The position numbers and the translations under genes are program-made. From assembly GCA_902628375.1 (NCBI GenBank), contig CACOMS010000002.1, positions 21,403 to 85,402 on the forward strand: a stretch of 64,000 nucleotides of DNA, given 5' to 3'. Below are positions 3,196-23,138 of this stretch, one piece after another. Each line of letters opens with the position of its first letter. Within the stretch, counting starts at the first letter, position 1. The notes under the pieces are model-generated. The model was not told the DNA's origin. It saw nothing but the letters and a program-made list of their open reading frames with translations, and searched no databases. The DNA is from an uncultured SAR86 cluster bacterium (GTDB lineage Bacteria > Pseudomonadota > Gammaproteobacteria > Magnimaribacterales > Magnimaribacteraceae).

Positions 3196-4551
3196 ATGAA
3201 GGTAGATTTTGTAGTTTTAGCAGCAGGCAAGGGAAAGCGCATGGGGCAAGGAGACTTGCCCAAAGTTCTTTTGCCCCTGGCGGGCAGACCTATTGCCCAA
3301 CATTTACTTGATACTGTCTCATCAATGAAAGAGTCCGCCGTAAGAATGGTGGTGGGCTATAAAGCTTCTCAAGTCAGGTCATCTCTTAAAGTTAAAAGAA
3401 ACACAAAATGGGCAACGCAAAAAAATCAATTAGGCACCGCACATGCCGTCAAACAAGCGGTTCCTTATCTTCGAAAGGGGTCAGTGGCTGTAATTTTATA
3501 TGGAGATGTTCCGCTGGTTTCTCTAAAGACCCTCAAAAGCCTGATTAGAGTAACCACACCTAAATCAATAGGAGTTTTAACTTTTCAAACAGAAAATCCA
3601 AAGGGTTATGGAAGGATTATCCGTGGAGACGATAAAAATATTGCGGCTATTGTGGAAGAAAAAGATGCATCTTTAGCGGAAAAGGCAATAACAGAGGTAA
3701 ACTCAGGAATAATCTCGGTTCAGTCTTCCATCCTGGGACCTCTTTTGGACAAAATAAACAACAAAAATGCTGCCAAAGAATATTATTTAACAGACATAGT
3801 TTCTGTGGCTACTAAAGAAGGTATATCAGCAATCCCCCTGAGATTAGATAACGCTAATGAGCTTCTGGGGGCCAACACACCACTAGAACTTCATAATTTA
3901 GAAAGGATATACCAAGAAAGCCAAGCCAATAAATTGATCGAAGGGGGCGTTAATGTTGCTGATGCTAGTCGAATAGATATAAGGGGCGCCCTAATGGCCG
4001 GAAAAGGCTCTTTCATTGACATAAACAATATTTTTGAAGGCGATGTTGAGATTGGAAAGGCCGTAAAGATAGGCCCAAACTGTTTTATAAAAAATTCTAA
4101 GATAATGGAAGGAGCGGTAATTAAACCAAACACCGTTATTGAAGACTCTATAGTAGGCCCAAATAGCAAAGTCGGCCCTTTTGCTCGAATCAGAGGAGGA
4201 ACCAAATTAGATGCATCTAGTGAATTAGGGAACTTTGTGGAGGCCAACAGGTCCCAAGTAGGCGCACTTACAAAAGCGAAGCATCTAGCGTATTTAGGCG
4301 ATACAACCACAGGAGCATCGGTCAATATAGGTGCCGGTACAATAACTTGTAATTATGATGGAAAAAATAAGAATAAAACCAAAATCGAAGATGGAGTTTT
4401 TGTGGGGTCTAATACCTCTATAGTAGCCCCTATAACCCTGTCAGAAGGATCATATACGGGCGCTGGTTCTGTGATAACTAAAAATGTTCCTAAACATAGC
4501 CTGGCCATAGGAAGAGCAAAGCAAAGCAATATTAAAAGGAAGAAAAATTAA
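3196..4551 (+). CDS. glmU: Bifunctional GlmU: glucosamine-1-P acetyltransferase / GlcNAc-1-P uridylyltransferase
   Basis: Makes UDP-GlcNAc for peptidoglycan and LPS: the C-terminal half acetylates GlcN-1-P and the N-terminal half transfers UMP. The 451 residues show the nucleotidyltransferase signature LAAGKGKRMG (about 8-17), a K of LPKVLLPLAGRP, and GTAHAV (about 82). The C-terminal left-handed beta-helix (from about 230) contains hexapeptide repeats, RGGTKLD, LGNFVE, and NIGAGTITCNYDG with the acetyltransferase His/Asn region. In many gammaproteobacteria glmU and glmS directly follow atp, as here; glmS overlaps its stop by one base. Confidence 0.97.
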   Translation: MKVDFVVLAAGKGKRMGQGDLPKVLLPLAGRPIAQHLLDTVSSMKESAVRMVVGYKASQVRSSLKVKRNTKWATQKNQLGTAHAVKQAVPYLRKGSVAVILYGDVPLVSLKTLKSLIRVTTPKSIGVLTFQTENPKGYGRIIRGDDKNIAAIVEEKDASLAEKAITEVNSGIISVQSSILGPLLDKINNKNAAKEYYLTDIVSVATKEGISAIPLRLDNANELLGANTPLELHNLERIYQESQANKLIEGGVNVADASRIDIRGALMAGKGSFIDINNIFEGDVEIGKAVKIGPNCFIKNSKIMEGAVIKPNTVIEDSIVGPNSKVGPFARIRGGTKLDASSELGNFVEANRSQVGALTKAKHLAYLGDTTTGASVNIGAGTITCNYDGKNKNKTKIEDGVFVGSNTSIVAPITLSEGSYTGAGSVITKNVPKHSLAIGRAKQSNIKRKKN

Positions 4552-6386
4552 TGTGCGGAATAATTGGAGCAGCCACTAAGGAGCCCTTAGCAGACAAGTT
4601 GATTCAGGGTCTGTTCAGACAAGAATACAGAGGGTATGACTCTTCTGGCTTAGCTGTTTTTTCTGAGGATTCCAATCAAATAGATTTAATAAAAAAAGCA
4701 GGAAAGGTTTCTGAATTAAAAGCTGCTTTACAAGATTACCCCCTAAGCGGCGACACAGGAATAGCTCATACGCGCTGGGCAACACATGGACTTCCTGAAG
4801 AGAAGAACGCACATCCACACCACTCTAATCAAGAGGTATATGCCGTACATAACGGCATAATAGAGAACTACAAGGAAATAAAAACCACTCTTTTGGCCTT
4901 GGGATATAAATTTACCTCTGAAACAGACTCAGAAGTTATTGGCCATTTAATCCATGCGAAGCTACAACAAGGTAACTTAGATCTGATTTCAGCAGTACAA
5001 GAAGCAATAAAAGACCTAAAGGGCGCTTTTGCTTTGGGCGTAATTCATAAAGATGAACCCCAGGTTGTTGTATCTGCTAGAAAAGGAAGTCCGCTTGTAT
5101 TGGGAAAGAGCAATGATGCAAACTACATTGCGTCTGACCAATTAGCGCTTTCTGACTTTGTTGAAGAATATATTTTTTTAGAAGAAGGAGATACTTCGAG
5201 AATAACCCCAAATGACATAAGAATATGGAATGAGGAAGGAACGGAAGTAAATAGACCTGTTGTTGTTGCTAAATCTACTGAAGGGCTGGTTGATAAAGGC
5301 GACTACAGACATTTCATGCAAAAAGAGATCCAAGAGCAACCAGTAAAAATAAGCGAGCTTATGATGGGACATCTTACAAAAGAAGGCGTGAGTGCAAATA
5401 TATTTGGCCCAACTGCGCCAGAGGTATTTTCTAAGGTAAACCATGTCCAGATAGTTGCTTGTGGAACAAGCTATCATGCTGGGCTAGTTGCCAAGTATTG
5501 GATGGAAGGCATAGCAGGAATTTCTTGTAGTGTAGATGTTGCTAGTGAGTTTAGATACAGAAATGTTGTAGTCAAAGAAGGGACTCTTTTTGTCACTCTA
5601 TCTCAATCAGGCGAAACCGCAGACACACTGGCCTGCTTAAGAGATCTAGGTGATTCTGGATACATTTCTAGCTTGGCCATATGCAATGTGCCCACTAGTT
5701 CACTGGTAAGAGAATCAGATTTAGTTTTTTTAACTCGAGCGGGGCCTGAAATAGGCGTGGCCTCAACCAAGGCATTCACCACACAGCTTTTAAGCTTGTT
5801 GATGTTAACTCTGGTCCTAGGAAGAGAGCACGGATTATCTCAGGCAGCAGAGAATTCTATTAATAACTCTTTAAGAGACCTGCCAAGATTACTCGAGGAA
5901 GTGATGGCTTTAGAGCCCGAGATAATTAAGATGGCCGAAGATTTTGATGACAAAGAACATGCATTATTTTTGGGTAGAGGAATCCACTATCCAATAGCCA
6001 TGGAAGGAGCACTAAAGCTAAAGGAAATATCTTACATTCACGCTGAAGCTTATCCGGCAGGTGAACTAAAGCATGGACCTTTAGCTCTAGTAGATGAAAG
6101 TATGCCGGTTGTAGCAGTAGCACCAAATGACGACTTGCTGGAAAAGCTTCACTCAAACCTAGAAGAAGTAAAGGCTAGAGGGGGAAAGCTCTATGTATTT
6201 GGACACACTGATGCCTATCATCAAGGCTTTGCAGAAAAGTTTATTGAGCTTCCAGAGGTCCCAGAATTAATAGCACCTTTAATTTATACCATTCCTCTTC
6301 AGATGCTTTCCTACCATGTAGCAATCCTTAAGGGTACGGATATTGATCAGCCTAGAAATCTAGCTAAGTCAGTAACGGTGGAGTAG
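4551..6386 (+). CDS. glmS: Glutamine--fructose-6-phosphate aminotransferase (isomerizing)
   Basis: Converts fructose-6-P and glutamine to glucosamine-6-P, the first step of the hexosamine pathway. The protein is 611 residues, the usual length. It starts MCGIIGA, so Cys2 becomes the N-terminal nucleophile of the class II amidotransferase domain (1 to about 240); HTRWATHG is present. Two SIS domains follow, with CGTSYHAG, TLSQSGETADT and the C-terminal ending PRNLAKSVTVE whose Lys binds the sugar. The ATG overlaps the last base of glmU (TAATG), indicating translational coupling. No riboswitch or ribozyme is possible in this arrangement. Confidence 0.97.
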   Translation: MCGIIGAATKEPLADKLIQGLFRQEYRGYDSSGLAVFSEDSNQIDLIKKAGKVSELKAALQDYPLSGDTGIAHTRWATHGLPEEKNAHPHHSNQEVYAVHNGIIENYKEIKTTLLALGYKFTSETDSEVIGHLIHAKLQQGNLDLISAVQEAIKDLKGAFALGVIHKDEPQVVVSARKGSPLVLGKSNDANYIASDQLALSDFVEEYIFLEEGDTSRITPNDIRIWNEEGTEVNRPVVVAKSTEGLVDKGDYRHFMQKEIQEQPVKISELMMGHLTKEGVSANIFGPTAPEVFSKVNHVQIVACGTSYHAGLVAKYWMEGIAGISCSVDVASEFRYRNVVVKEGTLFVTLSQSGETADTLACLRDLGDSGYISSLAICNVPTSSLVRESDLVFLTRAGPEIGVASTKAFTTQLLSLLMLTLVLGREHGLSQAAENSINNSLRDLPRLLEEVMALEPEIIKMAEDFDDKEHALFLGRGIHYPIAMEGALKLKEISYIHAEAYPAGELKHGPLALVDESMPVVAVAPNDDLLEKLHSNLEEVKARGGKLYVFGHTDAYHQGFAEKFIELPEVPELIAPLIYTIPLQMLSYHVAILKGTDIDQPRNLAKSVTVE

Positions 6387-6405
6387 AAGGAAACAGTGAT
6401 TTAAT

Positions 6406-6855
6406 GTGAATAAGATAAAACAAATTTATAAATTATCTTCAGTATTATTTTTTATATCTTTTTCCATTCACGCAAAAGAATTTCAAATCTATGGCGGAAG
6501 CGGACATGATGTTTTTCTGGGTTGCATAGGATGTAGTGAATATAGTTCAGACTCAATTTGTAATGGGTATGGCACTTATGGCAATGAATATTCTGCACAA
6601 GGAATGTTTAACGAGTATGCTGGATTTGGCAATGAATACTCCAGCAATAGTCCATGGAATGAGTATTCCTCTAGCAATGATGTCCCTGTTTTGGTAGATA
6701 AAGAAGGAAACTTCTATGGATATTTCACTATAAATAAATACAGGTCAAACGCAGTAGATTTTGCAGGAGAAATGTATAAATGGTTTGAAAAGCATGATGG
6801 CGATATAGAGAAAGTAAGAAGAGAATTATGTAGTTTCTTTGGTCAAGGATATTAA
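6406..6855 (+). CDS. Secreted hypothetical protein with Asn-Glu-Tyr-Ser repeats
   Basis: A 149-residue protein from a GTG start (RBS-like GAAGGAA about 13 bases upstream). It begins with a basic, hydrophobic signal-like segment ending near FSIHAKE. Residues about 33-95 hold short repeats around NEYS or NEYA (CSEYSSDSICN, YGNEYSAQGMFNEY, FGNEYSSNSPWNEYSS), alternating with CN/GFG turns, then a mixed C-terminal domain ending in a short acidic helix. Small proteins with this CSEY/WNxYS pattern occur as hypothetical proteins in several proteobacteria; no function is known to me. It stands alone after glmS. Confidence 0.7.
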   Translation: MNKIKQIYKLSSVLFFISFSIHAKEFQIYGGSGHDVFLGCIGCSEYSSDSICNGYGTYGNEYSAQGMFNEYAGFGNEYSSNSPWNEYSSSNDVPVLVDKEGNFYGYFTINKYRSNAVDFAGEMYKWFEKHDGDIEKVRRELCSFFGQGY

Positions 6856-6959
6856 TGAAATGGAAGACAAATTTGTCAAATTCTACAAAAGTTTTCATAA
6901 AGCATTTCATGGCAAAAAATCAAATCACTGTTTTGTTCAAGTCAGTCACTGCGGAATAA

Positions 6960-7478
6960 ATGGATAAAAAATACAAAAAATTATTTCAAACTGTATGTGA
7001 AGCGCGAATTGATGCGCCCAAGGAAGCATTTAATCTTCATGACTGGGTTTTTACTCTATCAGATAAAGATTATCAATCCACAGCACGTGGGCATATTGGC
7101 GCCGGATCGAGCATTCATACTGATGGAACACAAACTTCTGTCAATGTGGAAAGTGTAGGAGGAGGTTTATTGGTTCAACACTATGTTGCAGAAGTTAAAG
7201 AACCTGATCACGTTAAGATGGTATCGCTTACTGATCTTTATTTAGCGCCCTTTATAAGAATTGTTATTAAGGTTACATGGGAAATGCGTCTAATTGCTGT
7301 TTCTGACAATGAATGTAAATTCCAAAATACTGTATTGGTAGAACACCCTAATTTCATTATGAAAATTTTCTCTGCTCTAGCATTAACCGGTTATTTTGTG
7401 CGAAAACATAATGAAGAAGAAACTCCATTGTTTGCTCAAAACTTATATAAAAGAACATTTGAAGGAAATAAAGGTTAA
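6960..7478 (+). CDS. Hypothetical protein, possibly SRPBCC-like
   Basis: A 172-residue protein without signal peptide. The pattern of long amphipathic strands (STARGHIGAGSSIHTDGTQ, GGGLLVQHYVAEVKEPDHVK, FQNTVLVEHP) followed by a C-terminal helix ending with NLYKR recalls START/SRPBCC ligand-binding folds, but I see no diagnostic motif. The predicted membrane-like stretch FIMKIFSALALTGYFV near the end is moderately hydrophobic. It is the last gene before the first repeat junction (about 7484), so it probably marks the left edge of the mosaic region. Function unknown. Confidence 0.65.
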   Translation: MDKKYKKLFQTVCEARIDAPKEAFNLHDWVFTLSDKDYQSTARGHIGAGSSIHTDGTQTSVNVESVGGGLLVQHYVAEVKEPDHVKMVSLTDLYLAPFIRIVIKVTWEMRLIAVSDNECKFQNTVLVEHPNFIMKIFSALALTGYFVRKHNEEETPLFAQNLYKRTFEGNKG

Positions 7479-7495
7479 GGGTCGGGTTAATTCCA
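7479..7495 (+). other. Left arm of the A1 palindrome
   Basis: GGGTTAA (7484-7490) and CCACT (7493-7497) pair with AGTGG and TTAACCC at 7506-7523. It is the only A copy with such an extended left arm and marks the left border of the mosaic. Confidence 0.5.
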
Positions 7496-7713
7496 CTCTG
7501 TTACAGTGGAGTAGTCTTAACCCACCCTTTGTTTTCACCCCACATTCTGCGGGGGTTTTAAAAACCTCTAAAATTTAACCCCGGTAAAAGTTACCTTAAA
7601 AATTTCACCTATTTTTTCGTGTTAGCGGAAGTTATGAGGGATTAATAAGACTTGTTGCGGTCCCTTATGCGGGTTTATGGGACATTCATAAGAAGTTATG
7701 GCAGAATATTTTT
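7496..7713 (+). repeat. Repeat A copy 1 with junction core
   Basis: First of four A repeats (others near 9711, 10401, 15014). It opens with the 20-base core CTCTGTTACAGTGGAGTAGT (7496-7515), then CTTAACCCACCC, the hairpin-prone ACCCCACATTCTGCGGGG, GGTAAAAGTTACC, the pair AGGGA/TCCCT, and ends GTTATGGCAGAATATTTTT just before the start codon of the MORN protein. Its core also forms a palindrome with bases to its left: GGGTTAA (7484-7490) pairs with TTAACCC, and CCACT with AGTGG. It overlaps no plausible gene. Confidence 0.85.
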
Positions 7714-9012
7714 GTGTATAAACTTTTTCCTATCTTATTTTTATTAATTCTTACCTCTTGTTCGAAACCCGAAATACCATCACACCGACTCATCGAGAAT
7801 GGTGGAATATTTTATGAGCGAGACTCTAACGAACCATTTACTGGTTCATCTGTTAACCATATCGATACTAAGTTATTTTCTAAAACTTATCTTGAGAATG
7901 GAATAATCGTAAAAAAAGAAACTTTTCATCCTAACGGGAAACTCCACACCGTTGAAAATTTTAATGAAGGAGAAGAGGGTAGTAAGGTTCAAGTTTTTGA
8001 CGAAGAAGGAACGGACATTTCAGACGAAACTTACCTAACTTACTGGGGAAATGGGTTAGTTAAGGTTAGGGGTCATTATATAAATGGTAAAAGAGACGGT
8101 CTCTGGGAAGAATTTGATTCAATGGGTAATTCTGTTAGAAGAAACCACTGGAGAGATAATAAATTGTTACCCATAATCGATTTCGAAAAAATACAGTTAA
8201 GAGAAAATATACCTTTTTTAGCAAACTCAAGAGAACCCTTTTCAGGAATTATTAGATTTAAAGAGTCCCCATATAAAGGAGTTAGACTTCAAGAATTTAA
8301 AGATGGAAAACCTGAAGGGTTTGTAGAATGGAGACATGAAGAAGAAAAAGGTGGACACATAGCATATTATGCTAGTTATACAAAAGGTCCTTCCTATAAC
8401 TTTGAAACAAAATATATTGAAGGAACGAAACCATATTACAAAGAGGGACTTTTCTATCATTGGTTCGATGAAAATGGAAACAAACAAGTAGAAGGTAGTG
8501 TTCAAGACGGACTTCAACTATATACAAGGTACCATGAAAGTGGAGCAATAAAAGGCAAGGGACAAAGCAGGTTTTATCCTGAAGATGGTTGGTATGAGGA
8601 TGGAGTACAAATTGTATATTATGAAAACGGTCAACTTAGGTCAGAAGAACTTTATGATAAGGGAGTTCCGGTTTCAGGAAAGAAGTTTAGTGATTCAGGA
8701 ATGGATATCTCAAACGGCGAAGGTCTTGGTTATGAAGATACAAGTTATTACCCACAACAAGGTTATTACTTAAATGGTTTAAGAGATGGAAAATGGGAAG
8801 ATGAAAGAGGGGCATTTAATACTTATCAAAAGGGAATATTAGAGGGTCCTTCAGTATATAAAACGGATTCTGAATGTACTTGGATGGTTGGATCATACAA
8901 AAAGGGACTGAGGGAAGGTGAATGGATAGAGTACACTTATGGAAATTGTATGGAAGATGGTGACCCGAGTGAATTGACTTACTTCGAGAATGGGGAGGAG
9001 GTTGAGAGATAA
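7714..9012 (+). CDS. MORN-repeat (YwqK-type) lipoprotein
   Basis: A 432-residue protein starting GTG immediately after repeat A. The N-terminus LFPILFLLILTSCSKP has a lipobox (LTSC), so it is predicted to be lipidated and exported. The rest is made of MORN_2-type repeats of 20-25 residues with the pattern Y-x-NG-x-x-x-G-x-W-x-E (for example GHYINGKRDGLWEEFDSMGN at about 116-135, GYYLNGLRDGKWEDERG near 349, GSYKKGLREGEWIEYTYGN near the end). Proteins of this type include YwqK, listed as an antitoxin-like component in Bacillus, but most are of unknown role. No toxin partner is adjacent. There is no Shine-Dalgarno at the start. Confidence 0.8.
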   Translation: MYKLFPILFLLILTSCSKPEIPSHRLIENGGIFYERDSNEPFTGSSVNHIDTKLFSKTYLENGIIVKKETFHPNGKLHTVENFNEGEEGSKVQVFDEEGTDISDETYLTYWGNGLVKVRGHYINGKRDGLWEEFDSMGNSVRRNHWRDNKLLPIIDFEKIQLRENIPFLANSREPFSGIIRFKESPYKGVRLQEFKDGKPEGFVEWRHEEEKGGHIAYYASYTKGPSYNFETKYIEGTKPYYKEGLFYHWFDENGNKQVEGSVQDGLQLYTRYHESGAIKGKGQSRFYPEDGWYEDGVQIVYYENGQLRSEELYDKGVPVSGKKFSDSGMDISNGEGLGYEDTSYYPQQGYYLNGLRDGKWEDERGAFNTYQKGILEGPSVYKTDSECTWMVGSYKKGLREGEWIEYTYGNCMEDGDPSELTYFENGEEVER

Positions 9013-9053
9013 AAAAGAGCAACTCTAGACAGTTCATAGAAAGCAAACAAGTG

Positions 9054-9144
9054 ATTCATGCAACCAAACCCCAACTCCTTCAAACACCGCAGAAATAGTG
9101 AAGAATTATGGGTGGGGTAAGAACAATCCGTTACCGTCGAATGA
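9054..9144 (-). repeat. Repeat B copy 1 with degenerate junction core
   Basis: First of three B repeats (others 13029-13120 and about 15958-16048). Read on the plus strand it runs from ATTCATGC through CACCGCAGAAATAGTGAAGA and GGGTGGGGTAAGAAC to a core variant ATCCGTTACCGTCGAATGAA. The reverse complement of its GGGTGGGGTAAGAAC/ACCGCAG part matches the outer part of repeat A (CTTAACCCACCC ... TTCTGCGGGGG), so it is marked minus relative to A. The last bases supply the ATG of the next gene. Confidence 0.8.
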
Positions 9145-9695
9145 AAAAGCAACTTCTTATAACTTTTTCAATATGTTTTTCATTTTTAGTAAATGCTCAA
9201 GAATCATTGCTAGGCATAAATTCAAGTGACGACGAATTTAAAAGAAGTACGTGGATCACAACAAAAAGGTTGTACGCAAACGAATACTATCAAGATGCGA
9301 ATGTCTGGTTATTTTTTGGAATAAGTCATTTTTGGAAAGAAGAAGGAATAGAAGACGATTTATATGTGTTCTCTGTTCAGGGCAACGTTGCTTTCGCAAA
9401 CGCAAATGAATCTCAAATTTATTTCTACGATAACAATTCAAACCGTTTTGAGTTTGCTGAGGCATATATGAGCGAGTATCAACGAGGCGATACACCATAT
9501 GGTTACAGGATGGGTATAGGTTGTGGAAAAAATTTTAAATATAACTGTATGAATTATTTCAAAACAATGGAAGACAAAGAACTAGTTTGGAGATTTTATA
9601 ATGGCAGCAGAAAAATTGCAGACATTGAAATACCAAAGTCATTTCGATCTGCTTTTATTGCGTATTTTGATGAAGTTCAAAAAACATACAAATGA
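9141..9695 (+). CDS. Secreted hypothetical protein
   Basis: A 184-residue protein beginning MKKQLLITFSICFSFLVNAQ, a clear signal peptide with a likely cleavage after VNA. I choose ATG 9141 rather than the in-frame ATG at 9108, because the latter lies in repeat B and would add 11 residues before the signal peptide. The mature part is aromatic and charged (ISHFWKEEG, YFYDNNSNRFEFAEAYMSEY, GIGCGKNFKYNCMNYF with two Cys). I recognise no family. It occupies its own segment between junction cores at 9126 and 9711. Confidence 0.65.
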   Translation: MKKQLLITFSICFSFLVNAQESLLGINSSDDEFKRSTWITTKRLYANEYYQDANVWLFFGISHFWKEEGIEDDLYVFSVQGNVAFANANESQIYFYDNNSNRFEFAEAYMSEYQRGDTPYGYRMGIGCGKNFKYNCMNYFKTMEDKELVWRFYNGSRKIADIEIPKSFRSAFIAYFDEVQKTYK

Positions 9696-9710
9696 ACCTT
9701 GCTACGACAA

Positions 9711-9927
9711 CTCCGTTACAGTGGAGTAGTCTTAACCCACCCCTTATTTTTACCCCACATTCTGCGAGGGTTTTCAGTCCCTTTAAAATTTAACCCCGGT
9801 AAAAACTACCTTAAAAATTTCACCTTTTTTTCTTGTTAGCAGAAGTCATAAGGGGTTGATATGATTTGTTGCGGTCCCTTACGTGTGTTCATGGGACAAT
9901 TAAATTGAATTGTGGCAGAATATTTTT
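9711..9927 (+). repeat. Repeat A copy 2 with junction core
   Basis: Second A repeat. The core CTCCGTTACAGTGGAGTAGT (9711-9730) is followed by CTTAACCCACCCC, ACCCCACATTCTGCGAGGG, GGTAAAAACTACC and the pair TAAGGG/CCCTTA, ending GTGGCAGAATATTTTT at the start codon of the next gene. Compared with copy 1 the middle hairpin keeps GGTA/TACC although the loop changed, which hints at conserved structure. No B repeat closes this unit; the next junction is A copy 3. Confidence 0.85.
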
Positions 9928-10407
9928 ATGAAAAAGTTGTTGATATTAATTTTTGTTTTAATTTTGAGTTCTTGTTCTCAAGAATTTAATGAGCAAGAAT
10001 TTAATGGGAATGAGATTGTTAAAAAGGATGGTCTTGTTTGGCACTATTCATCCACTGAACCTCTTACTGGGAAAGTTGTGTCGTTCCACGAAAACGGTCA
10101 AATAAAGGAGGTAGGAAACTACATAAACGGAGAAAAAGACGGTCTCCATGAGGTTTTCCACGAAAACAGTAAATTACATAGAAGAGGAAACTACATAAAC
10201 GGAGAAAAAGACGGTCTCCATGAGGAGTACCGGGAAGACGGCATGAGACAGTACATGTTTCACTGGAAAAACGGAGAATTGGACGGCCGCCAGGAGTACT
10301 TCGACCAATGGGGAGATCTCCGTCTTAGGGAAACTTGCGAGGACGGAGTTTGTGTTAGATCGGAAGACCAAAGGGGATATGTAGGGGATAGGAGATATAG
10401 GGAGTAG
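9928..10407 (+). CDS. Short MORN-repeat lipoprotein, C-terminus ended by repeat A3
   Basis: A 159-residue lipoprotein. The start ATG 9928 directly follows repeat A2 and gives MKKLLILIFVLILSSCSQ with lipobox LSSC. MORN_2 repeats follow, two of which are a near-perfect 72-bp (24-residue) tandem duplication: the segment with NYINGEKDGLHE is encoded at about 10113-10153 and again at about 10185-10225. The last residues (GYVGDRRYRE) lack MORN character and the stop codon lies in the GGAGTAG that begins repeat A3, so the original C-terminus may have been replaced at that junction. Function unknown, as for its larger relative at 7714. Confidence 0.75.
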   Translation: MKKLLILIFVLILSSCSQEFNEQEFNGNEIVKKDGLVWHYSSTEPLTGKVVSFHENGQIKEVGNYINGEKDGLHEVFHENSKLHRRGNYINGEKDGLHEEYREDGMRQYMFHWKNGELDGRQEYFDQWGDLRLRETCEDGVCVRSEDQRGYVGDRRYRE

Positions 10408-10606
10408 TCTTAACCCACCCTTTATTTTTACCCCACATTCTGCGGGGGTTTTAAAAACCTCTAAAATTTAACCCCGGTAAAAGTTACCTTAAAAATTTCA
10501 CCTATTTTTTCGTGTTAGCGGAAGTTATAAGGGGTTGATATGACTCGTTGCGGTCCCTTATGTGTATCAATAGGACATTTACAAGGAGTTATGGCAGAAT
10601 ATTTTG
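10391..10606 (+). repeat. Repeat A copy 3, core 5' half degenerate
   Basis: Third A repeat, clearly homologous to copy 1 from GGAGTAGTCTTAACCC (10401) to GGAGTTATGGCAGAATATTTT (10606); the body from ACATTCTGCGGGGG to TTAGCGGAAGTTAT is nearly identical to copy 1. The core reads GATATAGGGAGTAGT, only partly matching the CYGTTACAGTRGAGTAGT of other copies. It starts inside the last codons of the short MORN gene. It leads straight into the HNH nuclease start. Confidence 0.85.
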
Positions 10607-11407
10607 ATGTTAAAAAAGTCGAACCTAGATGTAACTAAGACCCGAAAACTTTTTCTTAGATATAAACTAACTGCAGAATTTTTATCACCCACTCAAACAG
10701 GTCTTACTAAGTCATATATGGATGCGATTATTGATTTTAGTAATTTTTTGAAAAAACATAAAATTCATGATTTTGACAAACAACAACAGGGACAAGCACA
10801 CAAGGTAACCATTAATCCAAGTTCTAAATATTATTACAATAACTCTTTAATTTATAAGGAAGTTGCATTCTTTAGACCGATGTCTAAAAAAGGCGATAAA
10901 AGAATTCGCATAGAAAAATTAGACCATCACTGCAAACCCCATGATTTACTTGCATTTGTTCTAATTGGCAATCAGATCGAAATAATAAATTGCTCATCTA
11001 TAAAAAACCTTGCAAATTTTTTATATCAAATAACAGTTTCAAATAATATCGCAATTTATTCATCTCAAAAAAAACCAACCCCTCCAAAAGGAAAGAAAAA
11101 ACCAAAAAAAATAAACTCCTCCTCAACAAGTTACTCAAGAGATCCAGCGGTAGAGGCATTTGTTTTAAATGCAAGTCTTGGAAAGTGTGAGTCTTGTAAT
11201 ATGAATGCACCTTTTATTAGAAGTAGCAATAATTCTTATTATCTAGAAATTCATCATATTAAAAGGTTAGCAGACGGAGGTTCAGACACTGTTTCAAATG
11301 CAGTCGCAGTATGCCCAAACTGCCACAGGGAATTTCACTATGGAGTTAATATGCATAAACTAAATAATCAGATATATAGAAAGGTAAAAAGGTTAATTAA
11401 AGAATAA
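10607..11407 (+). CDS. HNH endonuclease, probable restriction enzyme
   Basis: A 266-residue protein; ATG 10607 follows repeat A3 (an in-frame TTG lies one codon earlier). The C-terminal 95 residues form an HNH nuclease with a zinc-binding pair: CESC at about 198-201, LEIHHIKRLADGGSD with the catalytic His, SNAVAVCPNCHREFH with the N and final H and the second CxxC. The N-terminal 165 residues are unlike anything I know and may bind DNA; a basic Pro/Lys hinge (PPKGKKKPKK) joins them. The gene faces a C5-methyltransferase with one base between the stop codons, so a type II restriction-modification pair is the natural reading. A stand-alone modification-dependent nuclease is the alternative. Confidence 0.82.
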   Translation: MLKKSNLDVTKTRKLFLRYKLTAEFLSPTQTGLTKSYMDAIIDFSNFLKKHKIHDFDKQQQGQAHKVTINPSSKYYYNNSLIYKEVAFFRPMSKKGDKRIRIEKLDHHCKPHDLLAFVLIGNQIEIINCSSIKNLANFLYQITVSNNIAIYSSQKKPTPPKGKKKPKKINSSSTSYSRDPAVEAFVLNASLGKCESCNMNAPFIRSSNNSYYLEIHHIKRLADGGSDTVSNAVAVCPNCHREFHYGVNMHKLNNQIYRKVKRLIKE

Positions 11408-11408
11408 A

Positions 11409-12686
11409 TTAAGACAAGGTATTTATTATTTTTTTAAAATGCATGCCAACTTCATATGCTAATTTTACAGGTACAGCATTGCCTATTTGAGTATATTTAG
11501 GGACCTCTCTTTCAAAAATGGATTCCCTAGGGTTGCCTGCTCTTCTTATGCCTCCAGTAGTTCTTTTGCCAGCAAATTGATACCAATCAGGAAAAGTTTG
11601 AAGTCTTGCCCACTCTCGAACAGATGGTGATCTTGCCTGAGAGTAATGGACAAAATCATCTGGAAGTGATGTCACCGTGATAGTTGGTCCTTTGTTGCCC
11701 CAATTCTTTGGAAGAATTCTTTGAGCAAACTTTTTTGTTTTCAAGTGCTCTGGTATTTCACCATTATTCTCAATCATATAAGCAAATTTTTCTCTTATCC
11801 TTTTAGAATGATTGCTATATTCGTGTTCAGTTAAAGGGTCGCCTTTTCTAAAAATAGTTCTTTTCTTTGTTCGAATCTCTTCTTGCCAAAAAGTTTTGGG
11901 TTCAGAGGGGTATGAATTAGTTGCACCACCGTACTCAAAGTTTTTATCAACAATATCAGAAAATATATCTTCAATATGAGGATAATCAAACTCAGGCATT
12001 GGAAGAAAACCACCATCCAACGCATCAAGAATATCATTCTTATCTGAATAAATATCTGATCTAACACCAATGATCAAAACACGAGGTCTATTTTGTGGAA
12101 CTCCATAATCTTTAGCATGCACAAGTTTATATTTAACATTGTAATCTGGTACGTTTTTAAATGTTTTTAGAACATCTTTAAAAATTTCTCCTTTAACTCC
12201 ATCTTTTGTCCACCTTGCGGACATCAAACCCTCTACATTTTCAAAAAGAAAAATCTTAGGTTTAATTTGATGAACGAAAAATGCCATATCTTGGTATAAA
12301 TGGTTAGACGGGAGTTGTTTTTTATCCACCGAATAAGATCTTCTAATTCCAATTCCTGAAAATCCTTGGCACGGAGGTCCTCCAGCAACAACATCGACAG
12401 AATCTTTTTTAAAGTCTCTGTTAAATTCTTTCTTAAGATCTTTAAATAAAGTCTTGAAGAATTCTTTGTTTGAAATTACATCTTTAATATCTTGCGAGTA
12501 GAATTTATTCCTAAGATGCGGGAACTCCTCATCCCTATTAGTTAAATAAGTTTCCAAAGCATCTTTATTTAACTCATTCACATAAAGCGGGAAGAACCCC
12601 GCTTTTTCAAGACCCAAAGATAACCCGCCACAACCAGCAAACAAATCAATATATGTGGGGGTTTTCTTCTTAAGTTTCATAAACAA
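11409..12686 (-). CDS. DNA (cytosine-5-)-methyltransferase
   Basis: A 425-residue Dcm-type enzyme that methylates cytosine at C5. Motifs in order: I DLFAGCGGLSLGLEKAGF (about 14-31), IV GGPPCQGFSG with the catalytic Cys (about 103-112), VI FENVEGL, VIII QNRPRVLIIG, a target-recognition region of about 130 residues, IX RSPSVREWARLQTFPDWY, X QIGNAVPVKLAYEVG. All catalytic motifs are intact. The start may be Met1 or Met3 (MKLKKK). It converges on the HNH gene, forming a restriction-modification pair located between repeats A3 and B2. The recognition sequence cannot be read from the protein. Confidence 0.93.
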   Translation of the reverse strand: MFMKLKKKTPTYIDLFAGCGGLSLGLEKAGFFPLYVNELNKDALETYLTNRDEEFPHLRNKFYSQDIKDVISNKEFFKTLFKDLKKEFNRDFKKDSVDVVAGGPPCQGFSGIGIRRSYSVDKKQLPSNHLYQDMAFFVHQIKPKIFLFENVEGLMSARWTKDGVKGEIFKDVLKTFKNVPDYNVKYKLVHAKDYGVPQNRPRVLIIGVRSDIYSDKNDILDALDGGFLPMPEFDYPHIEDIFSDIVDKNFEYGGATNSYPSEPKTFWQEEIRTKKRTIFRKGDPLTEHEYSNHSKRIREKFAYMIENNGEIPEHLKTKKFAQRILPKNWGNKGPTITVTSLPDDFVHYSQARSPSVREWARLQTFPDWYQFAGKRTTGGIRRAGNPRESIFEREVPKYTQIGNAVPVKLAYEVGMHFKKIINTLS

Positions 12687-12768
12687 GTTCTATTTATAAC
12701 TTAATTTGACGAAATTTTCCAGGTATTGTTTAATGAAATTTGCATCAAGAGCAGGATTAAATTCCTCT

Positions 12769-12794
12769 CCAACCTGCCAACTCCGGCAAGGTGG
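12769..12794. other. Imperfect hairpin upstream of the 64-residue gene
   Basis: CCAACCTGCC and GGCAAGGTGG (8 of 10 positions complementary) flank a 6-base loop in the 148-base gap between the methyltransferase start and the small gene at 12835. The gap must hold the promoters of both divergent genes. The hairpin could be an operator or a 5' leader structure. No T-tract follows, so it is not a terminator. Confidence 0.35.
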
Positions 12795-12834
12795 AAAGAA
12801 TGATGTGGTTAACCAACAAACATAGGAGTACAAA

Positions 12835-13029
12835 ATGAATTACAAAAAGATAAAAATTAATGAATCATCATATGTAAAACTTTTTGATGATGACAGATTT
12901 GAAGTTCACTGTTCTGCTCAAGGACCACTTGGAGCAAATGTTTATCATTTTAAAGGAGGTCTCCTTGAGTGGAAGCAAAGGAGGAGTTATGCTGGTGTAT
13001 CTAAGAAATATAAAGCAACTTATGAGTAA
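12835..13029 (+). CDS. Small hypothetical protein within the restriction-modification segment
   Basis: A 64-residue protein with a good RBS (AGGAGT, 6 bases before ATG). It is mixed alpha/beta in character (KINESSYVKLFDDDRFEVHC, VYHFKGGLLEWKQRR) with a basic C-terminus. No helix-turn-helix is apparent, so it is not an obvious restriction-modification controller (C protein). It lies divergently from the methyltransferase gene and just before repeat B2, whose first bases overlap its stop codon. Unknown function. Confidence 0.6.
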   Translation: MNYKKIKINESSYVKLFDDDRFEVHCSAQGPLGANVYHFKGGLLEWKQRRSYAGVSKKYKATYE

Positions 13030-13120
13030 TTCATGCGACTAAATCTCAACCCTTTTAAATACCGCAGAAATAGTGAAGAATTATGGGTGGGGTAAGAACA
13101 CTCTGCTACAGTAGAGTAGT
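13029..13120 (-). repeat. Repeat B copy 2 with intact junction core
   Basis: Second B repeat: ATTCATGC, ACCGCAGAAATAGTGAAGA, GGGTGGGGTAAGAAC, then core CTCTGCTACAGTAGAGTAGT (13101-13120). The middle is identical to B1 over ACCGCAGAAATAGTGAAGAA and TTATGGGTGGGGTAAGAAC. With repeat A3 it brackets the HNH/methyltransferase segment. Its core shares ACAGTAGAGTAGTTT exactly with the solitary core at 13561. Confidence 0.85.
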
Positions 13121-13148
13121 TTACAAAAGTAAATAAGCAGGAGTTGGA

Positions 13149-13538
13149 ATGGTTATAAACAACCAAGTTTTCATTAGAAGGTTTGTTATCTTTACATTTT
13201 GTGTGACTGCAATTCATTTCATCTTAGAAAGTCTATACACAATACAATTTGGACAGTCATTTTTAGGACTCCTGCCTGACTTAATTGCTGACGCACTTTT
13301 AGTAACAGGTGGCGTACTAGTTTTAAAAAACTCAAAAGCGATAGGCATTTTGTGCGGGGCATGGGGGTTTACTTTTTGTTTACATTATCGATCTTGGGCA
13401 TGGAGATTTGAGTCAGTGCAAGACGGTTCTGCAACAACAGTTGATGAAATAACAATGATTGTTTTGGCATCCACTATGTTTATCTCAATACTCTGCTTTA
13501 TTCTGACTCTATTAATGTGTTTGCCAAAAAGAAATTAA
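13149..13538 (+). CDS. Small integral membrane protein, unknown
   Basis: A 129-residue protein with three to four membrane segments (FVIFTFCVTAIHFILESLY at about 12-30, FLGLLPDLIADALLVTGGVL, AIGILCGAWGFTFCLHYRSW, MIVLASTMFISILCFILTLL). RBS GCAGGAG lies 6 bases before ATG. It sits alone between two exact 15-base copies of ACAGTAGAGTAGTTT (13107 and 13567), so it forms its own segment. I do not recognise the family. Confidence 0.7.
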   Translation: MVINNQVFIRRFVIFTFCVTAIHFILESLYTIQFGQSFLGLLPDLIADALLVTGGVLVLKNSKAIGILCGAWGFTFCLHYRSWAWRFESVQDGSATTVDEITMIVLASTMFISILCFILTLLMCLPKRN

Positions 13539-13560
13539 TATTATTTACTGTTGTAAAACA

Positions 13561-13580
13561 CTTAATAACAGTAGAGTAGT
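13561..13580 (+). repeat. Solitary junction core
   Basis: CTTAATAACAGTAGAGTAGT matches the last 13 bases of the B2 core exactly and continues with TTT in both places. No A or B flank accompanies it. TACTGTT at about 13548 pairs with AACAGTA here, giving a 7-bp stem. It separates the small membrane protein from the amine oxidase, 460 bases after the B2 core. Confidence 0.65.
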
Positions 13581-13613
13581 TTTAAATCGTTATCCAGTAA
13601 GCAGTTTTTATTA

Positions 13614-14987
13614 ATGAAGATTTTTATAAGAGTTCTATTTGCATATATTTTATTGCAACCCGTTTATGCTTTTTCTGAAAGCGAAGGGTTAAAAATACTG
13701 GTTGTTGGGGCAGGAATATCAGGACTGGGCGTGGCAAGAGATTTACATGACTCTGGTTATAAAGTAACTGTTCTTGAGGCTAGAAATAAAATTGGCGGAA
13801 GAATAGACACAGATAGATCATTGGGGTTTCCGATAGAAAGAGGTGCTAATTGGATTCACAGTAATGAGTTAGAAAATAATCGCCTCATGTCCATAAAAGA
13901 AGAGCTGGGGCTAAAAACATATATAAGCCCCTTAACTGCTTATGATGGCGTTAAATTGTTTGACAAAAGTGGAAATGTTATAAATCTAAAGAAAGAAGAT
14001 TTAGAAAAAATTGAATTTAGGATAGGGTTGGCTGCCTACATTGCTTCATACATTAAACCTTCGTCAAATCTGGAAGATGTAATAGATTTCTTAAAACGCA
14101 TAGGCTTACTGTCTTTTGCTCCTAATGCACTTCTACAAGCCATTCACCAAACTTTAGAACTAAGCGCCGCTGAAGATTCGAGGAATATGCCAATCGGTGT
14201 CTTAATAGAGGAAGCAGAATATGCTGAGAGCGCTGGAAGTGATGAAGAGGTGCTTGGGGGCTTTGATCAAATTACAAATCATTTATCTCAGAATTTAGAT
14301 ATTAAATTGAACACCCCAGTAACAAAAATTGATTATTCATCTAAAAAGATAAAAGTATTTACCGATGAGCAGGCTTACGTTGCTGATTCAGTGGTTGTGA
14401 CTGTTCCTCTTGGTGTTTTACAACAGAACCTTATCGAATTTGTTCCGGAGTTGCCTGAAAAAAAGAAAGATGCAATTAGCAATATAAATCTAGGAAATGT
14501 AAACAAGGTTATTTTAAGATTCCCATACAAGTTCTGGGGAGACGACAAAATGTTTTTCATTGAGCGAGAGAACAGAAGTGCCTTTTCAACCTGGTTCAAT
14601 AACGAGGTAATAGTAAATGAACCAGTTATCTATTCCATTATTTCAGGAGACTACTCAAGAGAACTCGAGAAGAAGTCAGATGAATATGTAATTGAAGAGG
14701 CAATGAAGCCTTTAAGGGTAGTTTATGGAAAAGATATTCCAAATCCAGATTCATTCTTAATCACAAGATGGGGGCTAGAGCCATACATACTGGGATCTTA
14801 CTCAACAGCTGGATACAATCAAGATGACTTAACACTGAGAACTGAATTAGCTAACCCAATTGAAAATAAAATATTTTTTGCTGGCGAGGCAACAAGCGTT
14901 AATGAATACGGCTTCACGCATTCCGCTCTAGATACAGGCTTAAGAGAAGCCAAAAAAATTAAAGAATTATATCCTTTAGATCTATAA
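13614..14987 (+). CDS. Exported flavin amine oxidase (FAD-dependent)
   Basis: A 457-residue flavin-containing amine oxidase. A signal peptide (MKIFIRVLFAYILLQPVYAF) precedes the dinucleotide-binding loop VVGAGISGLGVARDL (about 30-44), VLEARNKIGGRI with the Glu that binds ribose, and the family signature ERGANWIHS. The C-terminal flavin-binding motif FFAGEATSVNEYGFTHSAL is intact. Likely substrates are polyamines or monoamines, oxidised in the periplasm to aldehyde, ammonia and hydrogen peroxide; specificity cannot be read. Although between junction cores, it has neither an A leader nor a visible RBS. Confidence 0.85.
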   Translation: MKIFIRVLFAYILLQPVYAFSESEGLKILVVGAGISGLGVARDLHDSGYKVTVLEARNKIGGRIDTDRSLGFPIERGANWIHSNELENNRLMSIKEELGLKTYISPLTAYDGVKLFDKSGNVINLKKEDLEKIEFRIGLAAYIASYIKPSSNLEDVIDFLKRIGLLSFAPNALLQAIHQTLELSAAEDSRNMPIGVLIEEAEYAESAGSDEEVLGGFDQITNHLSQNLDIKLNTPVTKIDYSSKKIKVFTDEQAYVADSVVVTVPLGVLQQNLIEFVPELPEKKKDAISNINLGNVNKVILRFPYKFWGDDKMFFIERENRSAFSTWFNNEVIVNEPVIYSIISGDYSRELEKKSDEYVIEEAMKPLRVVYGKDIPNPDSFLITRWGLEPYILGSYSTAGYNQDDLTLRTELANPIENKIFFAGEATSVNEYGFTHSALDTGLREAKKIKELYPLDL

Positions 14988-15013
14988 TCTCACCCAATAA
15001 CGCTTTTAAAACA

Positions 15014-15225
15014 GTCCGTTACAGTGGAGTAGTCTTAACCCACCCTTTGTTTTTACCCCACATTCTACGGGGGTTTTCAGTACCTCTAAAATTTAACCCC
15101 GGTAAAAATTACCCTAAAAATTCCACCTATTTTTTCGTGTTAGCGGAAGTCATGAGGGACTGATATGACTTTTTGCGGTCCCTTATGCGTGTTTATAAGA
15201 CATTTATAAAAACTTATGGCAAAAT
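15014..15225 (+). repeat. Repeat A copy 4 with junction core
   Basis: Fourth A repeat: core GTCCGTTACAGTGGAGTAGT (15014-15033), then CTTAACCCACCC, ACCCCACATTCTACGGGGG, GGTAAAAATTACC, the pair AGGGA/TCCCT, ending near CTTATGGCAAAAT. Unlike copies 1-3 it does not abut a start codon; the next gene begins 27 bases later with its own RBS (AAGGAG). With B3 it brackets the genes at 15253 and 15608. Confidence 0.83.
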
Positions 15226-15252
15226 CATAACTTAAATACAAGGAGAAACTTA

Positions 15253-15606
15253 ATGAGCGAAAAAATTTATTACGCTGCTATGTTCAGGAGCAGACCTTTT
15301 ACATTTATTATTGGGTGTATGTTTATATTCCCCCCACTATACTGGTTTCTTTTGGCAAGATCTGAAAAGATAACTTTCAGTGATGGTAGGATTATTTATT
15401 CAAGAGGACTATTAAGTAAAAATGATACCGAGTGTGATCTTAATAGGGTTTCTTCAGTTCAAGTAAGACAGTCAGTGGGTCAAAGGATATTTGGTGCTGG
15501 GGACGTAGTAGTAAATACCGCAGGAGATGTTCCAGAAATAGAAGCATTAGGTTTTGCTAATCCAAATGAAATAAAGAAGGCAATAGACGAAGCAAGAAGA
15601 TCATAA
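15253..15606 (+). CDS. Bacterial PH-domain (bPH_2/YdbS-type) membrane protein
   Basis: A 117-residue protein. A transmembrane segment (about 14-33, FTFIIGCMFIFPPLYWFLL) is followed by a bacterial pleckstrin-homology domain: ITFSDGRIIYSRGLLSKNDTECDLNRVSSVQVRQSVGQRIFGAGDVVVNTAG is the classic bPH_2 pattern (strand, I-x-x-V-x-V-x-Q, R-x-x-F-G-x-G-x-V). It ends with a short helix. The domain is probably cytoplasmic, near the membrane; the biochemical role of the family is not known. RBS AAGGAG sits 9 bases before ATG. It is the first gene after repeat A4. Confidence 0.82.
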   Translation: MSEKIYYAAMFRSRPFTFIIGCMFIFPPLYWFLLARSEKITFSDGRIIYSRGLLSKNDTECDLNRVSSVQVRQSVGQRIFGAGDVVVNTAGDVPEIEALGFANPNEIKKAIDEARRS

Positions 15607-15607
15607 T

Positions 15608-15922
15608 TTGAAAAAGTCTTTAAAAAATACTGTCTTTTCAGACTCCGATCAAATAAGCACCCTCAAAGGGTGCTTATTTATTTTAATAACTCAATTTCTT
15701 TTATTAATTCTTACAATTACATTTGCGTATTTAATATATATTAGTTCCGGATTTATAAAGTCTTTCTCTATCGCAGCGCTCATAACTAATATTTGTTATC
15801 ACGGGGTTGCCTTATTTAATGATCTTGATGATTTTGGAGAGTATAGAGCAATGAGAGGCGTTCTAATTTGGTATGCGACTGCAGTAATAGTAATTACAAC
15901 TTTTATAGAGATAGTCTTTTGA
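15608..15922 (+). CDS. Small membrane protein spanning a terminator-like hairpin
   Basis: A 104-residue reading frame from TTG 15608, one base after the preceding stop. Three hydrophobic segments (GCLFILITQFLLLILTITFA, the AALITNICYHGVALF region, GVLIWYATAVIVITTFIEI) suggest a real membrane protein. Its codons 15-24 overlap a perfect 12-bp hairpin (15651-15679). No better in-frame start exists downstream for a long way. Either the hairpin attenuates expression, or the start is wrong. Family unknown. Confidence 0.55.
   Translation: MKKSLKNTVFSDSDQISTLKGCLFILITQFLLLILTITFAYLIYISSGFIKSFSIAALITNICYHGVALFNDLDDFGEYRAMRGVLIWYATAVIVITTFIEIVF
15651..15679 (+). terminator. Perfect 12-bp hairpin, terminator-like
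   Basis: AAATAAGCACCC (15651-15662), loop TCAAA, GGGTGCTTATTT (15668-15679), followed by ATTTTAATAA. The stem is perfect and the 3' side is T-rich, which would serve as an intrinsic terminator for the PH-domain gene that ends 45 bases upstream. It lies inside the next reading frame. Confidence 0.6.
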
Positions 15923-15957
15923 ATGAATCATTTATTTTTTAAGAGAAATATAGGGAT

Positions 15958-16048
15958 TTTATACGACCAAACCTCAACCCTTTCAAGCACCGCAGAAATA
16001 GTGAAGAATATAGGTTGGGTTAAGAACACTCAATGACTATAGAATGAA
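15958..16048 (-). repeat. Repeat B copy 3 with degenerate core
   Basis: Third B repeat: CGACCAAACCTCAACCCTTT, CACCGCAGAAATAGTGAAGA, AGGTTGGGTTAAGAAC, then a poor core CTCAATGACTATAGAATGAA. The arms CTCAACCC and GGGTTAAG pair in 7 of 8 positions. The ATG of the next gene lies in the last bases, exactly as in B1 (both have GAATGAAAAA). With A4 it brackets 15253-15922. Confidence 0.78.
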
Positions 16049-19556: not shown

Positions 19557-19958
19557 ATGCTAATAGTAACAAGATACCTGAGCGACAAGTTAGCCATAAC
19601 ACTTTCAACAGCATGTGCTATTCACTGCCTAATGGTTCCTTCTTTTTTAATTGTAACTTCTGGGTTTTTTACAATATCGATCCATAATGAATTAATACAT
19701 TATCTGCTTATATCTCTAGCTGTTCCTATAAGTCTTTTCGGACTGAACTCAGGGCTAAAGAAGCACAATAAGCCCTCTTTCTTTTACATAGGTATCACTG
19801 GACTTGCCATTCTAGTTAGCGCCATTTTTATTGGAGAGAGCATGTTTGGTAGGTTTGGAGAACAAATATTATCAGTAGTGGGCTCAACAATAGTTGTTTA
19901 TGCACACTTTAGAAACTACCGAACCTGTAAAGAGATTGACTGTTTATGCCATGAATAG
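19557..19958 (+). CDS. MerC-domain membrane protein
   Basis: A 133-residue protein with four membrane segments and the MerC features: ACAIHCL (about 19-25, a Cys pair in the first span) and a Cys/His-rich C-terminus CKEIDCLCHE. MerC family proteins are inner-membrane proteins, some carrying mercuric ions and many of unknown metal role. A 3' fragment of this gene (from about codon 63) is duplicated at 22928-23138. An RBS-like GAGACAGGA precedes the ATG. There is no mer operon around it. Confidence 0.83.
   Translation: MLIVTRYLSDKLAITLSTACAIHCLMVPSFLIVTSGFFTISIHNELIHYLLISLAVPISLFGLNSGLKKHNKPSFFYIGITGLAILVSAIFIGESMFGRFGEQILSVVGSTIVVYAHFRNYRTCKEIDCLCHE
19742..19954 (+). repeat. Direct repeat, left copy (3' end of merC-like gene)
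   Basis: About 210 bases, from ACTGAACTCAGG to TGTTTATGCCATG, recur at 22928-23138 at roughly 95% identity by eye. The left copy belongs to the intact gene. The two copies bracket the sugar islet. Confidence 0.85.
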
Positions 19959-22927: not shown

Positions 22928-23138
22928 ACTCAGGACTTAAGAAGCATAATAAGTCCTCTTTCTTTTACATAGGTATCACTGGACTTGCCATTCTAGTTAG
23001 CGCCATTTTTATTGGAGAGAGCATGTTTGATAGGCTTGGAGAACAAATATTATCAGCAGTGGGCTCAACAATAGTTGTTTATGCACACTTTAGAAACTAC
23101 CGAACCTGTAAAGAGATTGACTGTTTATGTCACATTTA
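22928..23138 (+). pseudogene. Fragment of merC-like gene (right copy of direct repeat)
   Basis: Bases from ACTCAGGACTTAAGAAGC to TGTTTATGTCAC repeat the last two-thirds of the gene at 19557. Read in the old frame they encode SGLKKHNKSSFFYIGITGL and, later, NYRTCKEIDCLCH followed by a stop, without start or first membrane spans. About ten base differences to the left copy suggest an event that is not very recent. It ends 36 bases before the next gene. Confidence 0.85.

Follow-up and report, generated by a model that had tools for sequence, protein, structure and literature searches.

In staphylococci and enterococci, SCC and ECC elements are inserted by large serine recombinases at the 3′ end of a conserved gene, with duplication of that end, and their att sites are approximately 50 bp long, have dyad symmetry in the circle and accompany variable cargo (PMC6222049). 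The cassette array that we describe here, which is known from its sequence, resembles these elements in its insertion with duplication at a gene 3′ end, its dyad att sites, its candidate large serine recombinase and its variable cargo. However, the array targets glmS and not rlmH, has no ccr pair (ccrA/ccrB or ccrC), is built of mostly one-gene cassettes in arrays of up to about ten with arms that differ between cassettes, and its integrase is absent from nearly all genomes of the order in which it occurs. With chromosomal integrons the array shares an ordered, one-orientation arrangement of mostly single-gene cassettes at a fixed chromosomal site, but it has no IntI, at the level of the core motif it shows no attI or attC boxes, and recombination takes the 3′ end of a host gene as its core, with serine-integrase geometry. 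Among streamlined aquatic bacteria, Ca. Methylopumilus has flexible islands with 20-bp tRNA-Lys repeats (PMC10872708) and Ca. Actinomarinales has tRNA cassettes (PMC7771536). As in these additive flexible islands, the small cassettes at glmS are marked by direct repeats of a host-gene 3′ end, although here the target is a protein gene, and inverted arms, a crossover and a candidate serine integrase can be defined. By its defining genes the array is neither an integron nor an SCC. It is integron-like in function, its site geometry and candidate enzyme are as in SCC/ECC, and ecologically it belongs with the additive flexible islands of streamlined aquatic bacteria. In the open-access literature, we found no earlier description of serine-integrase cassette arrays at glmS. 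We consider it highly probable that the repeat studied here, repeat A, forms the conserved left terminus in one small non-autonomous cassette family, which lies in tandem at the glmS 3′ end and would be moved in trans in the manner of a serine integrase, with the inner part of the repeat acting as a leader.

Repeat A and the cassette array at the 3′ end of glmS

The window, the whole 64,000-nt stretch of DNA analysed, holds repeat A four times (7508-7722, 9722-9936, 10401-10615 and 15026-15240). These four copies had been noticed in a sequence-only reading, and the repeat is far beyond chance, with four 18-nt boundary matches observed and 0.01 expected. Also borne out is the earlier observation that three copies end exactly at a start codon (A1 at GTG 7714, A2 at ATG 9928 and A3 at ATG 10607), each at a fixed 16 nt after a conserved ATG/GTG-GCAGAATATTTT motif; the end of A4 is not at a start codon. 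A2 has only 62% identity in the ungapped register because of a deletion, compared with 84% when gaps are allowed. Two features were absent from that first reading, namely the copy of the glmS 3′ end before each repeat A and a matching right-end repeat. The sequence TCYGTTACAGTGGAGTAG, which is the glmS end, directly precedes A1, A2 and A4, and a decayed form precedes A3. At the opposite (right) end of the A units is the second repeat family, D3, which terminates in GGGTGGGGTAAGA, the inverted counterpart of the TCTTAACCCACCC with which repeat A begins. In the genome to which the window belongs (a 1.13-Mb draft, 67% complete), repeat A is confined to the glmS array, the features of which are listed in Table 1.

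Table 1. Features of the glmS cassette array in the window
Feature	Position	Strand	Details
glmS, attachment gene	4551..6386	+	ORF; 67-73% identity to GlmS of 19 same-family genomes
glmS end			...AAG TCA GTA ACG GTG GAG TAG; TCA GTA ACG GTG GAG TAG = S V T V E stop
Core site 0, glmS 3′ end	6369..6386	+	TCAGTAACGGTGGAGTAG
Cassette 1	6387..6959	+	ORF 6406-6855; terminal core TCAGTCACTGCGGAATAA 6942-6959; end repeats AAACAGTGATTT
Cassette 2	6960..7514	+	ORF 6960-7478; terminal core TCTGTTACAGTGGAGTAG 7497-7514; end repeats pair poorly
Repeat A1, left end module	7515..7713	+	Inverted terminal repeat TCTTAACCCACCC 7515-7527, then conserved putative leader up to GTG 7714
Cassette A1 cargo	7714..9012	+	MORN_2-repeat lipoprotein-like protein
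Cassette A1, conserved right end	9050..9144	+	GGGTGGGGTAAGA 9110-9122; spacer ACAA; core TCCGTTACCGTCGAATGA 9127-9144
Cassette	9145..9729	+	ORF from ATG 9141; terminal core TCCGTTACAGTGGAGTAG 9712-9729; end repeats unrecognisable
Repeat A2	9730..9927	+	Precedes MORN_2 protein 9928-10407; right end lost, decayed core 10390-10407 left
Repeat A3, left end of restriction-modification cassette	10408..10606	+	
Cassette A3 cargo	10607..12686		HNH / type IV restriction-like nuclease 10607-11407 (+); C5-cytosine methylase 11409-12686 (-)
Cassette A3, right end	13025..13119	+	Core TCTGCTACAGTAGAGTAG 13102-13119
Non-A cassette	13120..13579	+	ORF 13149-13538; end repeats TTTACAAAAGTAAATAA / TTATTTACTGTTGTAAAA; core 13562-13579
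Non-A cassette	13580..15032	+	Flavin amine oxidase 13614-14987; core TCCGTTACAGTGGAGTAG 15015-15032
Repeat A4, cassette left end	15033..15226	+	bPH_2 protein 15253-15606; ORF 15608-15922
Cassette A4, right end	15953..16047	+	Decayed core TCAATGACTATAGAATGA 16030-16047

The array was followed through 35 same-family genomes (20 with glmS at the set threshold) and 203 genomes of the order, and repeat A also through 369 genomes from other orders of the class. The core TCNGTNACNGTNGARTAR (SVTVE-stop), which copies 18 bp of the glmS 3′ end, marks the boundaries of every cassette, and the direct repeats of the host gene end found there restore glmS. In the 517 kb of DNA that bears arrays, a requirement for at least 13 of 14 fixed bases gives 170 cores, all of them on the glmS strand. 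In the same-family genomes examined, short core-ending units lie directly 3′ of glmS, and a few loci have a glmS core copy alone. Repeat A itself is found in 30 of the 203 order genomes, in four families; of 20 order-level loci that carry it, 19 have glmS and every one has two or more cores. The 369 class members sampled from outside the order yielded no copy of repeat A. The gene order is atp-glmU-glmS. Variable cassettes are found at one fixed locus with direct repeats, as in an additive flexible genomic island. They form arrays of up to about ten, and their median length is 601 bp. In 110 of 120 non-A cassettes and 24 of 27 A cassettes, the longest ORF has the same strand as glmS, and some cassettes have no recognisable arms or cores.

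The cargo of A cassettes comprises MORN-repeat lipoproteins, small exported or membrane proteins and defence-type genes. In addition to the HNH / type IV restriction-like nuclease and C5 methylase of the window, A cassettes carry a type II restriction-modification pair (loci L214 and L225) and a PADLOC candidate defence protein (L211), and a non-A cassette carries a type I restriction system, as judged by inspection (L064).

Cassette ends and the crossover point

In every cassette, one arm directly follows the core, and its inverted counterpart is separated from the next core by 4 nt. The arms are diverse in sequence (GTTTGAACAGAGAATT, TTCACAACAGTAAATT, TCTTAACCCACCC, GTTTAATCGGTCTTTC and others), and both ends within one cassette match. 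In 139 distinct cassettes, the arms pair at 8.91 of 15 positions, compared with 5.63 (sd 0.17) for permuted ends, which reached a maximum of 6.35 in 10,000 trials; at registers other than 4 nt, pairing is 4-5 of 15. Pairing also exceeds its permuted counterpart in 68 dissimilar end pairs (7.43 vs 4.87, maximum 5.75) and in the A cassettes alone (13.18 of 22 vs 10.88, maximum 12.43). Arm sequence varies among cassettes and complementarity is kept, and the genuine base-pair covariation, as judged from these alignments, is that between left and right cassette ends, which is a feature of a recombination site. The histogram of arm pairing is bimodal, with about one third of cassettes having poor arms, and therefore includes decay or mis-called boundaries. 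The A cassettes have in common a left shell of approximately 190 nt and a right shell of 85 nt around unrelated cargo. Because the 85-nt right shell is shared, cargo may also swap by homologous recombination between shells.

Eight families of cassettes are represented in several genomes, where their neighbours differ; a 1104-bp family, for example, is present in four genomes and a 186-bp family in three. In the left core, wobble positions 3 and 6 track the neighbourhood (identity 0.125), and positions 9, 12, 15 and 18 track the cassette (0.63, 0.75, 1.0 and 1.0). The right core is reversed, with 0.88 and 0.75 at positions 3 and 6, and 0.5, 0.38, 0.5 and 0.25 at positions 9, 12, 15 and 18. From this switch in inheritance, the exchange can be placed after core position 6 and before position 9, where A7 C8 is nearly invariant. 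The dyad axis of the right arm, 4-nt spacer, 18-bp core and left arm falls at 7.5, in agreement with the crossover interval, which is an independent measure. The attP deduced from the linear sequence is dyad-symmetric with a central crossover, and AC would be the exchanged dinucleotide. Since the bases at positions 6 and 9 are free to differ between partners, the required identity is approximately 2 bp. Serine recombinases need about 2 bp of identity, and tyrosine recombinases need 6-8 bp. The geometry of the cassette site, as it appears from these comparisons, is that of a serine integrase. For A118-type integrases, the attP half-site is 25 bp long with a distal 9-bp zinc-ribbon motif (PMC3783163), and the cassette arms, when measured from the axis, coincide with the distal part of such a half-site.

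The candidate integrase and proposed movement in trans

Full-length large serine recombinases are present in 3 of the 203 order genomes. In one of these (G159), the recombinase is encoded by a 6.0-kb element that lies between the glmS core and a second core (locus L249, 3913-9941, minus-strand coordinates), and this is the only one of the 203 genomes in which a serine integrase element was found at glmS. The arms of the element, GTTTAGTCGGTCTTTC / GTTTAATCGGTCTTTC, are as in the A cassettes of L214 and L220; the left arm is identical to both and the right end is 1 of 25 bases off that of L214. Only the arms are common with repeat A, and the inner sequence of the element differs. The integrase ORF (L249 8261-9916, 551 aa) is intact, with matches to PF00239 and PF07508 and a weak zinc-ribbon match. 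It matches a PHROG integrase family and, by sequence, the YokA, TP901-1 and phiC31 integrases of known structure, with YokA and TP901-1 being closest. We infer that the G159 integrase is the best candidate for an enzyme that could move A cassettes in trans. The element also encodes a Rep with a filamentous-phage gpII domain (PF23343); no coat or assembly gene was recognised in it, and it is possibly a phage satellite.

The serine integrases of G154 and G163 (26-28% identity to the G159 protein) were rejected as drivers at glmS because they are not beside glmS cores, as were the broken remains of a serine recombinase at the end of a G004 contig, which have no core nearby. No drivers for the remaining arm types were found in the 203 order genomes, the window's genome, at its 67% completeness, yielded no serine recombinase, and none above the cut-off was found in same-family genomes. 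IMG/VR and phage collections gave no match to repeat A, its arms or the driver. Small proteins with PF07508 only are often encoded in the first cassette after glmS (L064 5135-5404, L070 134-487 and L078 278-472; also in L228, L234-L238, L240 and L241), and may be directionality factors or serine integrase remnants.

In the mechanism that we propose, a circular cassette would carry an attP consisting of a core that re-encodes the last GlmS codons, flanked by inverted repeats, one directly at the core and the other after a 4-nt spacer. Recombination between this attP and the glmS core would take place at the central AC, as with large serine integrases, and would therefore leave GlmS intact and duplicate the core. 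The integrase would be supplied in trans by rare autonomous elements such as that of G159. The first 13-22 nt of repeat A would be the left attP arm, and the remainder would most likely be an expression leader that sets the cargo start codon, in preference to a structured RNA. Such a mechanism would give tiny-genome bacteria a route to gain or swap single genes, including restriction systems, while sparing the essential glmS, and would explain a repeat class that otherwise resembles regulatory RNAs. With an att core, arms, a crossover and a candidate integrase supplied, the mechanism is therefore testable in a standard laboratory host. More broadly, we lean towards an order-wide, integron-like capture platform, in which glmS is the acceptor, integrase-less one-gene cassettes are shuffled in trans by rare helpers with filamentous-phage-type replication genes, and arm types reflect groups served by different integrases.

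It is doubtful, though compatible with the cassette explanation, that the conserved inner part of repeat A serves a satellite element as a signal for replication, packaging or transfer. The relation of the G159 Rep to filamentous-phage gpII and the shells that A cassettes keep around unrelated cargo would both suit such a signal. However, the G159 element matches repeat A in its arms only, repeat A is absent from the IMG/VR and phage records searched, and a signal of this kind would not need a fixed distance to start codons.

It is improbable that the array is an integron or integron-like system in which a tyrosine recombinase recognises folded single-stranded ends, despite its short single-gene cassettes, their one orientation and arms that keep pairing rather than sequence. 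No IntI-like gene was found in the arrays, and the crossover lies between freely varying wobble bases, with about 2 bp of identity and a serine integrase at the site. The tyrosine recombinases that were found in the family (PF00589 matches) are XerC/XerD-sized proteins and scattered divergent integrases away from glmS cores. In a motif comparison, as distinct from an attC covariance model, the core TCNGTNACNGTNGARTAR at the 170 sites lacks the GTTRRRY of attC R boxes (GTTRRRY/RYYYAAC). Three divergent tyrosine recombinases of 450-490 aa (L162 6610-8031, L164 7763-9127 and L166 7061-8530) adjoin, at a distance from glmS, stretches of genes for small exported proteins and may belong to another type of island.

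The inner part of repeat A and the weakest alternatives

Following the arm, repeat A contains a conserved TGGCAGAAT-like box, and in 18 of 26 copies an ORF starts precisely 6 nt beyond it; the median for the first ATG-initiated ORF is 199 nt in A cassettes vs 41 nt in others. Judged by fixed spacing alone, the inner part of repeat A is likely an expression leader that fixes the position of the cargo start codon. On the simplest reading, it would hold a conserved promoter, and the untranslated leader would be very short or absent; a generic promoter scan of repeat A gave no excess over shuffles.

The sequence-only reading had proposed a structured leader with three hairpins, in which stem conservation with base changes pointed to an RNA or single-stranded DNA that must fold. 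The leader part of this proposal is plausible given the spacing of the box, but the structure is unsupported. The listed hairpins can be drawn in all four window copies, and across the larger set the stems are drawable in most copies, with 82-92% of cells paired. In 27 full copies from four families of the order (mean identity 86% over approximately 200 nt), however, the named stems have 85.9% of cells paired vs 85.2% in shuffled alignments, and 4 pairs are changed on both sides vs 2.4, a value reached by 95 of 500 shuffles. The enlarged alignment, which the earlier reading had itself named as the check on folding, therefore yields no covariation beyond shuffles, every measure being inside or close to the range of the shuffles, and the conservation of stems through base changes does not hold there. 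The fold energy is ordinary (z -0.21 as RNA and 0.24 as DNA), no Rfam family matches repeat A, and the third stem and alternative stems vie for the same bases. Selection on three hairpins in a cis-regulatory RNA or single-stranded DNA would fit the order-wide conservation of the segment immediately before the start codon, but we hold it to be very improbable, and for the three named stems a structured RNA is largely refuted.

Tn7-like or other DDE insertions with the cores as target-site duplications are extremely improbable, since, although glmS is the classical Tn7 target, the insertion point coincides with the stop codon, the repeat spans 18 bp, and each half of the core has its own inheritance, which changes over at position 7-8, a pattern that a target duplication would not give. 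The array thus resembles Tn7-like elements in having its target next to glmS and differs in position, duplication length and core-half inheritance, and judged from site geometry its membership among them is unlikely.

Two further features of the window were observed. A SAM-I/IV riboswitch (12737-12833, + strand, E 2e-12) lies within the restriction-modification cassette A3, where it precedes a 64-aa ORF of no assigned family and adjoins the DNA methylase, a SAM user. A 205-nt duplication with 96% identity joins 19747-19951, which is part of a MerC-like gene (19557-19958), and 22928-23132, a fragment near a sugar-nucleotide gene.
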